Assembly: GCF_022919835.1 (NCBI RefSeq)
Contig: NZ_CP095074.1
Location: forward strand, 248,001-312,000
Origin: Halobacillus shinanisalinarum
Lineage (GTDB): Bacteria; Bacillota; Bacilli; Bacillales; Halobacillaceae
Reading direction: 5' to 3'
Length of the DNA: 64,000 nt
Shown: positions 20,716 to 46,118 of the stretch, piece by piece
How positions within the stretch are numbered: position 1 is the first letter of the stretch
Layout: each line of letters begins with the position of its first letter
The notes under the pieces: generated by a model
What the model saw: only the letters and a program-made list of their open reading frames with translations
Told to the model about the DNA's origin: nothing
Databases searched by the model: none
Position numbers and translations under genes: made by a program

Positions 20716-20744
20716 TTTAAACCTCAATATTTTAAATATAGTAT

Positions 20745-21367
20745 GTAGAAAGGAATGGTCATGAAAAAGGTAAAAATTACGGCTTAGGTCTAGTAGGTTT
20801 TCCCAATCAGATACCGAGTGTCACCACTCTGGCGGTTCCCCATTAAATCCGATTCAGCCTCGTCTCCGATGACTGGACTAGATTACCACTGAGTCCGTAC
20901 TATAATTCCCTTCTCATGTCCATTGCTAGAACAGCCTAGGGGATTTCCCCGACAGCCTTTAACCGCTCCTTAGCCTCTTTTGCAGTTCTGATTTCATCCA
21001 GTGCAAACATCCAATCTTCAGTGGCCATCCGAAGATAATGGACATTTTTAATGACTGTAATCCCCTCAGCAACCACTCAAGGCAGGCTACGCTGCTTATA
21101 CAGGTATTAATCCATATAAAGCAGGTTCATACCCCATTTCATAAGAATCTCCGGCTAGAATCCTCTTACAAAGATAGGCCTCCGCGGAAGCAGGGTCAAC
21201 GCCCACATGCCTTTGTGGATCGCCCTGCGACCTTAACTCCCAGCACCGACCCAAAGCTGGGCGCCTCAAGCCAGCACAAGGAACTTCATCGATGTGCCCT
21301 TTGGCGGATTTTTAGGCCCGCCTTCAGGAACGGAGGACCGACTAGAATACTGCACCATCCCTTTAAT
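20745..21367 (-). ncRNA. ole: OLE RNA (ornate, large, extremophilic RNA)
   Basis: About 600 nt between ispA and oapA hold no credible reading frame but many nested hairpins. Examples: CTGCTTATA / TATAAAGCAG (21092-21124), GCAGGG / CCCTGC enclosing CCACA / TGTGG (21190-21228), and GGGG / CCCC around AAAT (20938-20950). Local G+C is higher than the flanks. The locus is the classic OLE position, upstream of oapA in the folD-xseA-xseB-ispA-ole-oapA-dxs cluster of extremophilic Firmicutes. OLE RNA with OapA forms a membrane ribonucleoprotein linked to stress tolerance and magnesium homeostasis. The 5' end is inferred from the promoter at 21374-21402; the 3' end is approximate. Confidence 0.87.
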
Positions 21368-21373
21368 AATTTA

Positions 21374-21402
21374 AATATACCATATTCGACTTATTTGCTC
21401 AA
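21374..21402 (-). promoter_or_regulatory. Sigma-A promoter of OLE RNA/oapA
   Basis: Minus strand TTGAGC (21397-21402), 17-bp spacer, TATATT (21374-21379), directly after the ispA stop. Predicted start about 21367, so the RNA can be made independently of read-through from ispA. Confidence 0.8.
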
Positions 21403-38111: not shown

Positions 38112-40950
38112 TTATAACCCACACTTCAACTGTGCATTACAATTTGTACAAGTGTTACAGCCGCCGATATCCTCAACGGTTCCTTTTCGGCAAACTGGAC
38201 AGGTGTCACCAACTTCTGATCCAATGGTTACCTTCGTTTTTTCTAATTCATGGACTGTATCCATTAGAACAACACGTGGTTTTCTATCCTCATCAAATTC
38301 AAATTCGGTCTGTTCTCCGTCAAAATCATTTTCTTCTGCTTTAAGCGTCAGAACTTGACTATCACGGCTTCCGTCTACATACACGGTTCCGCCTTTGGCA
38401 CCGCCATGGTATAGTCGCTGATACACTTGTTCCACTTGCTCAACGGTGTACCCTTTTGGTGCGTTCACCGTTTTTGAAATCGAACTGTCTACCCAGCGCT
38501 GGATCACACACTGTGTATCCGCATGGGCTTCGGGAGCCATCGTCATAGCTGTTATGAACCAGTCCGGGAGATTGTCCGGGTCTTGGTCAGGATGCTTGTC
38601 CAAATACTCTTGAACTATATCAGCTTTAACCTCGATAAACTTACCAAGACGACCGCTTCTGTAATAAGAGAACGAGAAGTATGGCTCAAGCCCGGTACTT
38701 ACCCCTACCATCGTTCCTGTACTTCCTGTAGGAGCTACAGTTAACAAGTGAGAGTTACGAATTCCGTATTTGAGTACATCTTCACGAATATCTTCAGGCA
38801 TATCCTGCATATAACCGGTTTCAACAAATCTTTGTCTCAGCTGTTGCGTTTCCTCATCGGTCTCCCCGTGTAAAAATGGGAAGCTTCCTTTCTCTTTCGC
38901 CAAATTGATGGATTCACGATAAGCCGTTGTTGCAATCACTTCAAAGATTTCATCAACGAGTTTATTTCCTTCTTTAGAGCCATACTCTGTTTCACAATAA
39001 ATAAGCAAATCGTGAAGCCCCATTACACCTAAACCAACACGGCGCTCACCTAAAGCCTGCCTCTTGTTTTCTTCTAGGAAGTAAGGTGTCGCATCGATAA
39101 CATTATCCTGCATGCGTACGCCTGTCGCAACTGTTTTTCTCAACTTGTCAAAATTAACTTTCTTCGCTTCTTTGTCTGCAACAGAAGCTAAGTTTACTGC
39201 TGCTAAATTACAGACAGAAAAAGGCGCTAACGGTTGTTCCAATTTTGTTACCCATAAGGCTTTTTATCCTTATGTTCTAACAGTTGAATTTCTGTTAGTT
39301 CAGCATATCTTTTAACAACGTTCTAATAAATAAACATGTTGTTTTGCGGCCTCGTGGATGGATTATATTCTAGTTATCCACTAGTTTCACCATCTATGCG
39401 TTGCCCCTGACCGAGCTGTTAAACAAGGCCTTCGGTTCGGGTTCCCGTCTCAGGGTCCCTGCTTCATTCCGCAATGATTTACATGAGGCAAACTATGCAA
39501 CTTTACCACATGGGTTGGTAGCCACAACCTTTTGACCATAAGCACTCGCGTTTGTTTTCTCGTTAGCATTGTCGATAAAGAAAATACCTGGTTCAGCAGA
39601 GTAAGTTGCACAAATATTGATTAACTTCCAAAGCTCTGCCGCCTTAACAGTGCGATACGTTTTCACGCCGAATCCTTTGGCTTCCCATTCACGGACATCT
39701 CCACTCTCTTGCCATTCTGCATTGTAAGTGGCCATTTCCTCTTTTGAGTAGGCTTCTACATCTGGAAAACGCAGGTGATACTCCTGGTCGTTTTCTGCTG
39801 CTTCCATAAATTCTTTTGTAATACAAACAGATATGTTCGCCCCTGTTAAGAATTCAGGGTTATGAACGGTGTATGTGCCGCCGGTTTGCAGTTTTTCCTC
39901 TGCTTCGCGCAGGCTGCTTTCTGTGAATCCACCTTGACCCGGCATGGTTTTATAATTAACCACGCTCTGATACAGGTCTTTCTCCGTTTCCGTTAAGGGG
40001 GTGAATTTAAGTTTTTCTTCTGCCAGTTCCTTAATTTGTTCATCTTCGGTATTTTCAATTAAAAATCTTAAAATGCGTGGATTCTGCATTTTCGAAATGA
40101 TGAATTCAACGATGTCAGGATGCCAATCTGATAACATAATCATTTGTGCCCCACGTCTTGATCCACCTTGCTCAACTAAATGAGTTAACTTAGCAATATC
40201 ATCTAACCAGGATACAGAACCTGACGACTTGCCATTAACCCCTCTAGCCAGCGTATTACGGGGCCTTAGGGTTGAACCGTTTGTGCCGACACCACCACCG
40301 CGCGACATGATTTCCATCACCTGCTTACGATGATCAGATATCCCTTCGCGAGAGTCTTGGATATAAGGCATTACGTAACAGTTAAAATAGGTCACATCCG
40401 TATTTGAGCCTGCCCCATAGAGAACTCGTCCTGCTGGAATAAAGTTGAGATTTGAGAGTTCTTCATAAAAGGCTTTAAAGCTCTGTTCCCTTTGCGCATC
40501 ATCCACTTCAACTGCTGATAATCCAGTTGCATTCCTTAAGGCAATCTGTTCATAAAAGACTTCTAGTGGTTTATCAATGGTATCAAGATTTCTTGTGATC
40601 ACACCTGTTTCGCGCTCTTCCTCTTTATCGAGCACATTGATGAACTCTTCTTCTACTTTAACTTTTGCCTTGTGATGTTCCCAATCGATCGATTCAATAA
40701 ATCCAAAACCTCGTGCGGGGAATTTCGGGTCATCCTTAACAGTAAGAACAACGAAATCTCCTTCTGACAACGTCAGCCTTTCTGTATCTTTGAATGCGTA
40801 GCGGTCTAACATTACTAACCGCGATACTCCGCTATGTGTTAAGTGCATATCTGATGTTATTTCGTGCACTTGATCAAATTGGCGGATATCCGCATTCAGC
40901 CGATCCACATTTAACCTTGCTGGCGTACTGCCTGTGGTTGTTGTCTGCAT
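38112..40950 (-). CDS. nrdJ: Adenosylcobalamin-dependent (class II) ribonucleotide reductase, split by an intron
   Basis: Two exons, 40950-39505 (482 codons) and 39239-38112 (375 codons plus stop), join to an 857-residue enzyme. Exon 1 ends ...ATNPCG and exon 2 begins EQPLAPFSVCNL, so together they restore the NPCGEQ active-site motif with catalytic Asn, Cys and Glu. Unspliced, exon 1 would stop after KVA. Exon 2 holds the PTGSTGTM loop, and the C-terminus has the paired-Cys tail CPVCRKG / CNTCTNC. It makes deoxynucleotides using B12 and no oxygen. B. subtilis has no nrdJ here; it sits between mntR and yqhL, where B. subtilis has yqhM. The promoter is overlapped by NrdR boxes. Confidence 0.93.
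39240..39504 (-). ncRNA. Group I self-splicing intron (ORF-less, about 265 nt)
   Basis: The insert divides the NPCG/EQ codons of nrdJ and has a stop in frame. P1: exon end CATGTGGT (39512-39505) pairs with the guide GCCTCATG (39489-39482), with a U.G wobble at the splice site. P10: GAAC of exon 2 pairs with GTTT just before the guide. P4: CCCTGA / TCAGGG. P7: GCATA (39399-39395, in the R element CAACGCATAGA) pairs with TATGC (39307-39303, in the S element AAGATATGC). P8-like GTGGAT / ATCCAC and P9-type hairpins CTAACAG / CTGTTAG and CATAAGG / CCTTATG follow. The last base is the omega G at 39240. No endonuclease gene is present. Confidence 0.93.
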
Positions 40951-45802: not shown

Positions 45803-45838
45803 AAAAAAAGAGACTCTACCGCTTTACCGGGAGTCTCT
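45803..45838 (-). terminator. Riboswitch expression-platform terminator upstream of gcvT
   Basis: Stem AGAGACTC / GAGTCTCT with a 14-nt interior followed by seven T residues on the minus strand, immediately after the second glycine aptamer. The 5' arm overlaps the aptamer end (GGACAGAGACTC), so ligand binding can disrupt it. Confidence 0.88.
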
Positions 45839-46030
45839 GTCCGTTTCACCAGAAAGTTTGGCGTTTTTAAAAACGTACGAAGACGTCTTCAATCCGCTTG
45901 CTTCTTGGGTGGTTTACCTATCGTAAACACTCTCCAGAGGTGCGTCCTACAAAGGTCTTTTTGCCTGAGAGATTCGCAATCATTTCGATTACTTGCTCCT
46001 TCGGCGCCACAAAAGTAGTCTCTCCCTTTG
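45831..46030 (-). promoter_or_regulatory. Tandem glycine riboswitch
   Basis: Minus strand: aptamer 1 has GGGAGAGACTAC, GCGCCGAAGGAGCAAG, AATCTCTCAGGCAAAAAGAC and CTCTGGAGAGTG. Aptamer 2 has AACCACC, GACGTCTTCG, AAACTTTCTGGTG and GGACAGAGA, as in B. subtilis gcvT. It switches on the glycine cleavage operon when glycine is abundant by preventing the terminator at 45803-45838. Confidence 0.95.
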
Positions 46031-46118
46031 CAATCATCCGCTACTAGTATTTTCTTAGATTAATTTGGGCATACTAACCTGTAAAGCTATGCGACAAACT
46101 CTCTTAAATTTCTGCTTC

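Follow-up and report, generated by a model that had tools for sequence, protein, structure and literature searches.

A probable ORF-less, IA-like group I intron, most likely self-removing, in nrdJ of Halobacillus shinanisalinarum and its mobile family

Phages T4, SPbeta and Twort have self-splicing group I introns of subgroup IA2, and RF00028 is a common search model for group I introns. A bacterial ribonucleotide reductase (RNR) group I intron that carries an IS element has reportedly been described (by Meng, in 2007); the nrdJ intron considered here differs from it in that respect. The T4, SPbeta and Twort introns are described as lying, likewise, in conserved motifs of nucleotide-metabolism genes. 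Chromosomal group I introns of Bacillus are reported from recA, nrdE, nrdF and flagellin genes (PMC3984707), that is, also from Bacillales protein genes; the present family also occurs in recA (loci L061 and L062), whereas the host gene here is nrdJ. The introns described for Bastillevirinae phages are also mostly IA-like and most have a loop-coded nuclease, but they were found by RF00028 or GISSD and their nucleases fall mostly in PHROG HNH clusters (PMC11878797). The RNR entries of RNRdb are stated to include more than 100 curated group I introns, some of them possibly in nrdJ (PMC2795772). Among the matches listed in a literature search on nrdJ, RNR and recA group I introns, the scope of which left out most subscription papers, no title or abstract opening describes the present nrdJ intron.

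The window, the whole stretch of DNA analysed, comprises 64,000 nt of H. shinanisalinarum (GCF_022919835.1, contig NZ_CP095074.1, positions 248,001-312,000). In its ORF list the minus-strand nrdJ frame starts at 40950 and stays open as far as NPCG; a stop follows inside an insert, and the frame reopens at EQPL. A first-pass annotation had placed an ORF-less group I intron of 265 nt between these two motifs, and the interruption was confirmed: 40950-39505 and 39239-38112 join in frame to give 857 residues with no internal stop (Table 1). The insert begins after a U (GGU/) and closes with a G (..UUG/GAA, the slash marking the junction). The exons match consecutive stretches of NCBIfam NF005991 (vitamin B12-dependent ribonucleotide reductase), so that the exon junction neither lacks nor repeats any part of the protein. 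Both exons are intact, with 89% identity to NrdJ of the same genus, and the intron-minus alleles that the annotation had proposed to seek in relatives were found, for example in four same-genus genomes with an uninterrupted nrdJ. The best explanation, given a probability of roughly 95%, is an ORF-less IA-like group I intron between the Gly and Glu codons of NPCG-EQPL, which belongs to a mobile family and most likely removes itself from the transcript. That the insert is a group I intron is, judged from comparison of sequences, almost certain.

Two other RNA elements were observed in the window: an OLE RNA at 20739-21374 (minus strand, 500.7 bits) and, at 45835-46037 (minus strand), a tandem pair of glycine riboswitch aptamers (68.8 and 36.4 bits) upstream of apparent glycine-cleavage genes, named by reading their translations.

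Table 1. Positions in the window of the nrdJ exons, the predicted intron and its proposed structural elements.
Feature	Positions	Strand	Basis or remark
nrdJ exon 1	39505..40950	-	482 codons, the last of ..NPCG (GGU); NF005991 positions 5-480
nrdJ exon 2	38112..39239	-	EQPL.. to stop, 375 residues; NF005991 positions 481-858
Group I intron (almost certain), 265 nt, ORF-less	39240..39504	-	frame break, shared boundaries, covariation
P1 exon strand CAUGUGGU, splice-site U at 39505	39505..39512	-	exon CCA/CCG covaries with intron CAU/CAC
P1 internal guide strand GCCUCAUG	39482..39489	-	placed by comparison of copies
P10 guide GUUU, partner exon-2 GAAC 39239-39236	39490..39493	-	4/4 pairs in 20/22 copies
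P3 5' strand UUGCGG	39469..39474	-	comparison of copies
P3 3' strand CCGCAA	39344..39349	-	comparison of copies
P4 39461-39458/39441-39438, P5 39455-39453/39446-39444	39438..39461	-	P4: one A.C mismatch in window copy
P6 39435-39434/39407-39406, P6a 39430-39426/39413-39409	39404..39435	-	P6 invariant; P6a: one U.C mismatch in window copy
J6/7 CAAC	39400..39403	-	same letters in T4 and SPbeta introns
P7 5' strand GCAUA	39395..39399	-	invariant in 22 copies; GCGUA/UACGC compensated in 5 other loci
P7.1 39394-39390/39361-39357, P7.2 39384-39382/39372-39370	39357..39394	-	comparison of copies
P8 39343-39338/39319-39314; loop is the nuclease-ORF site in long relatives	39314..39343	-	comparison of copies
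J8/7 AAAAGA and P7 3' strand UAUGC (39307-39303)	39303..39313	-	sequence, comparison
P9 39298-39292/39283-39277, P9.1 39274-39269/39258-39253	39253..39298	-	comparison of copies

The fold was drawn on a structure alignment of 22 ORF-less nrdJ intron copies with twelve helices (P1, P3, P4, P5, P6, P6a, P7, P7.1, P7.2, P8, P9 and P9.1). Of its 1289 cells 99.2% are paired, 30 of the 59 pairs have changed on both sides, and none of 500 shuffles equalled the alignment in any of the five measures used; when partners were slid by 1-3 columns, just 32-40% were paired. Compensatory changes occur in 10 of the 12 helices, among them P3, P4, P5, P6a and P8. P1 varies at one pair only, and the 2-bp P6 and P7 are constant across the 22 copies, the covariation of P7 deriving from five loci outside this alignment and P6 showing none. 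RNAalifold, run unaided on the same alignment, recovered the same helices with P6 shifted by 1-2 columns, extra P1 pairs and no P7, which is absent from its drawing because P7 is a pseudoknot that RNAalifold cannot draw. Folded as a single sequence, the insert was better than all but one of 200 dinucleotide shuffles (z -3.1); that fold lacks a group I core and the helices were not based on it.

The structural features by which group I introns are recognised are in place: a U.G pair of P1 at the 5' splice site (22/22 copies, with one exon position covarying with the guide), a pseudoknotted P3-P7 core with P4-P6 and P8, a terminal intron G (46 of 46 copies with readable ends) and P10, of which all four pairs form in 20 of the 22 aligned copies, one more (L018) having a compensated form and two others keeping 2/4 (L032) and 3/4 (L037). 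P7.1, all five pairs of which show changes on both sides, and P7.2, missing in one of the 22 copies, lie between P7 and the P3 3' strand, as in subgroup IA. The annotation's P7 of GCAUA/UAUGC, its P8, P9 and terminal G are present as claimed, the P1 with U.G and the P10 that it had named without letters were placed by comparison of copies, and its ORF-less group I intron finds support in the conserved fold and the compensatory changes in the 22 copies. A pairing of the P1 exon strand with GUUGCAU, the nearer complement in the window, was dismissed: relatives vary in this stretch or lack it, whereas GCCUCAYG changes with the exon. Over all loci, 355 cores (300 distinct) were collected, with a P7 5' strand of GCAUA in 350, a biased count because most were fetched with patterns demanding GCAUA, and GCGUA in five. 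A script located UAUGC for 321 of the 350, with 11 of the remaining 29 at cut-off ends, and the compensated UACGC for four of the five GCGUA cores; the fifth was found by eye in the printed letters.

The window copy keeps 57 of the 59 consensus pairs, the broken ones being the P4 and P6a mismatches of Table 1; its P1 carries a single U.U mismatch in addition to the splice-site U.G. Its splicing may be less efficient, because two pairs are broken and its branch in the intron tree is long (0.22 against a median of 0.084). The same two observations suit a decayed intron, that is, a copy that no longer splices in a strain where nrdJ is dead and a class I RNR has taken its place. Adjacent class I RNR alpha and beta genes (NCBIfam NF006665 and NF007184, over the cut-off) are indeed present in the organism's own genome, where no match to class III NrdD was found. 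Decay is nevertheless very unlikely, as the exons are intact and 89% identical to same-genus NrdJ and the letters of P1 and P10 are preserved. The class I genes bear on a further claim, that dNTP synthesis depends on splicing: with them present it need not depend on the nrdJ intron.

An Rfam group I covariance search had been set beforehand as the test that could refute the intron, and in it the insert went unmatched: RF00028 found nothing at E <= 10 in the insert or in the element in the organism's own genome. Neither did it match any of 20 nrdJ loci, the window included (E <= 10), or of nine further loci (E <= 1). Since every relative tested is missed too, the result is put down to the limited reach of the Rfam model; a match to it is a detection test and no structural definition of a group I intron. 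With the best introns of T4, Twort and SPbeta, RF00028 reaches 92-105 bits, over the cut-off, while its sole match in SPO1, at 25.6 bits, is below it. It also detects, at 91 bits, a group I intron elsewhere in the organism's own genome (L001, C1:1030053-1030403); this one lies beside a flagellin-like ORF, at its 3' end, the ORF being named by reading its translation; flagellin genes are among the intron hosts reported from Bacillus.

A difference from the detected introns concerns P7. Of 11 RF00028 matches over the cut-off, nine contain both GACUA and UAGUC, and the T4 and SPbeta core reads CAACGACUA and AAGAUAUAGUC, whereas the nrdJ intron core reads CAACGCAUA and AAAAGAUAUGC. Conversely, the core model of the present family, R1, gave no match to T4, Twort, SPbeta or SPO1. 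The P7 exchange may be the cause of the RF00028 miss. It is conceivable, at odds slightly below even, that these introns form an undescribed IA-like subgroup in which the second and third pairs of P7 are exchanged (GCAUA/UAUGC), which is present in hundreds of Bacillota genes and phages, is missed by RF00028 and has been spread by PD-(D/E)XK homing nucleases of its own. Nearly half of the weight goes to a plainer account, namely an ordinary phage-type (IA2/IA3) intron missed by one Rfam model, which subgroup models would place and whose ribozyme would not be distinct. A P7.1/P7.2-type insertion between P7 and P3 is also found in the T4, SPbeta and Twort introns, J6/7 CAAC and the UGAAC after P7 recur in T4, with SPbeta resembling them in these letters, and SPO1 exemplifies phage matches that also fall below the cut-off. 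Moreover, RF00028 and GISSD have been called incomplete (PMC11878797), and archaeal introns are reported to have been found by subgroup models and none of them by RF00028 (PMC6125680). This plainer account is opposed by the P7 letters, and by the gap between the 92-105 bits of T4, Twort and SPbeta and the complete silence of the model at E <= 10 on the nrdJ intron.

Matches to the insert (blastn, E <= 0.01) were found in 62 of the 397 genomes of the order, its own genome counted. Fifty-seven loci were examined in two batches (30 and 27), seven of the 62 genomes being left out for weak short matches (E 0.002-0.01). The family was found in nrdJ at 47 loci from 47 of the 397 genomes, 347 of which have a NrdJ match (E <= 1e-60); with 91 of the at least 119 stretches of the pattern scan given below also in nrdJ, the element is not uncommon there, contrary to the first-pass annotation. 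All 46 nrdJ copies with both ends readable share one codon boundary, GGU/...UG/GAR, in a search that anchored the ends on the NPCG and EQPL codons and left the third base of Gly and the last intron letters free; one locus (L063), whose ends were not located, was excluded from the boundary and codon counts. The tblastn breaks at NrdJ residues 482/483 agree with this boundary. Five copies were found outside nrdJ, one in a terminase gene (L057), two in recA (L061 and L062) and two in tape-measure-like phage genes (L065 and L066), all named by reading translations; the reading frame of recA in L061 is also broken at a further place upstream. Four loci (L067-L070) have matches of 21-38 nt only, and L071 is an intact nrdJ.

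A core-pattern scan of a species-wide genome collection, which overlaps with the genomes of the blastn search, returned at least 119 stretches (91 in nrdJ, 5 in recA, 1 in a terminase gene and 22 unassigned), and the same scan of viral contigs at least 120, with no nrdJ assignment among those listed. At other loci, the 3'-exon proteins of five of eight representatives have a Pfam match (gyrase A, DNA polymerase III alpha, a capsid protein, a helicase and an AAA protein).

Several side observations were made on these loci. In three phage stretches (L097, L098 and L099), intron-like sequence lies between or beside annotated pieces of RNA polymerase, terminase and gyrase A. A record titled Arthrobacter beigongshangensis, an actinobacterium (L104), has an intron-bearing nrdJ with 68-77% identity to the window NrdJ over three pieces, representing either a transfer or a contaminated assembly. 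A second intron, over the RF00028 cut-off, lies about 0.7-1 kb upstream in nrdJ at 5 of 20 loci (L010, L012, L021, L025 and L035), a weak RF00028 match was seen in nrdJ of L020, and a tblastn break starting at NrdJ residue 231-276 occurs in 17 of 46 carrier genes (L029 could not be judged). The window nrdJ is without this second, upstream intron.

The codons around the junction were compared between the 46 carriers and 44 intron-free nrdJ genes, a non-random set of four same-genus genes, 39 hand-picked for spread and L071. Of 60 codons, two were invariant and 58 testable. The Gly codon is GGU in 46/46 carriers and 13/44 intron-free genes (p=4e-14, Fisher), the Pro codon CCG in 40/46 (the others CCA) and 14/44 (p=1e-7) and the Cys codon UGU in 46/46 and 35/44 (p=1e-3); among the other 55 testable codons the minimum p is 9e-3, at the Asn codon directly upstream. 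These p-values are optimistic, because the rows are related while Fisher's test assumes independence and because the intron-free set was hand-picked, although the kinship problem is limited since the carriers are scattered on the tree. The signal is confined to P1, which argues for selection on guide pairing rather than co-converted flanks, and the P1 guide pairing accordingly appears, from the codons compared, to be under selection.

The NrdJ tree has 86 rows (42 carriers and 44 intron-free genes), five loci (L017, L029, L050, L059 and L060) having been dropped for gaps. Intron presence and absence require 26 changes on it, compared with a shuffled mean of 29, and 76 of 500 shuffles were as low; its well-supported branches force at least 14 changes. 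In the intron tree, the window intron pairs with one from another bacterial family (f47; support 80) and that of a family-mate (L028) with one from a third family (support 91). The distribution is scattered and horizontally mixed at one site, as sought for a homing element. It could also be asked whether the intron is a regulatory element of benefit to the host that ties NrdJ output to GTP, magnesium or translation, as its place in a gene of dNTP synthesis and the lack of room for a nuclease in the 27 of 46 copies under 300 nt might suggest; this is highly improbable, the near-random scatter on the NrdJ tree favouring gain and loss over retention.

The homing family is further suggested by the lengths of the nrdJ introns (n=46), of which 27 are below 300 nt, two intermediate and 17 of at least 900 nt. 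The added length of the long copies lies between the 3' strands of P3 and P7, i.e. in the P8 loop, and an ORF of more than 300 codons (310 to 345) is present in 12 of the 17, those of the other five being short or broken (164 to 254). Six aligned P8 ORFs have YKPDFF..KIVE(I/V)KSR in common, and some of their relatives are named by NCBI as 'PDDEXK family nuclease' or 'restriction endonuclease'. The protein gave no match over the cut-off in Pfam, weak matches in PHROGs that include HNH-endonuclease and unknown families (best 9.8e-7) and nothing significant among sequences of solved structures. Its structure model (pLDDT 78, pTM 0.43) had no match to PDB folds at E <= 0.001; T7 endonuclease I, TnsA and restriction-endonuclease-like folds were among the weak ones. 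The ORF of the long copies is probably a PD-(D/E)XK-like nuclease with a putative homing function. The window copy, being ORF-less, encodes no homing endonuclease. The scattered presence, the single site and the nuclease-like ORF of the long copies support the mobile kind of intron that the first-pass annotation had proposed. An IStron (a group I intron with an IS605-type transposase) or another insertion element is scarcely credible: introns of that kind are described as IA2-like with P7.1/P7.2 (PMC4227781), but the ORF of the long copies is PD-(D/E)XK-like, the insertion point in nrdJ is constant and the ORF list shows no transposase ORF in the window copy.

As a group I intron, the insert would excise itself from the nrdJ mRNA in two transesterification steps initiated by guanosine. 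P1, formed by the exon CRUGUGGU and the guide GCCUCAYG, would fix the 5' site at the U.G pair, P7 would bind the guanosine, and P10 and the terminal G would fix the 3' site. The family would probably home into the nrdJ site by means of the PD-(D/E)XK-like nuclease encoded in the P8 loop, which would cleave the empty, intron-free site, and the window copy may have lost its ORF rather than primarily lacked one.

A gap in models and classification has been named as a limit of present surveys (PMC11878797). Because the family (at least 119 genome and 120 viral stretches) was unseen by RF00028 in all 29 loci searched, group I introns may be undercounted in Bacillota and their phages; this is tempered by a 2025 group I database stated to have been built from RF00028 at the very lax threshold of E 1000 (PMC11835236). 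Intron-interrupted nrdJ genes may also be misread as frameshifted. The codon footprint of P1 offers a simple, RNA-free comparative test of the use of guide pairing, and the altered P7 may serve as a natural variant for probing how far the guanosine site tolerates base-pair exchange.
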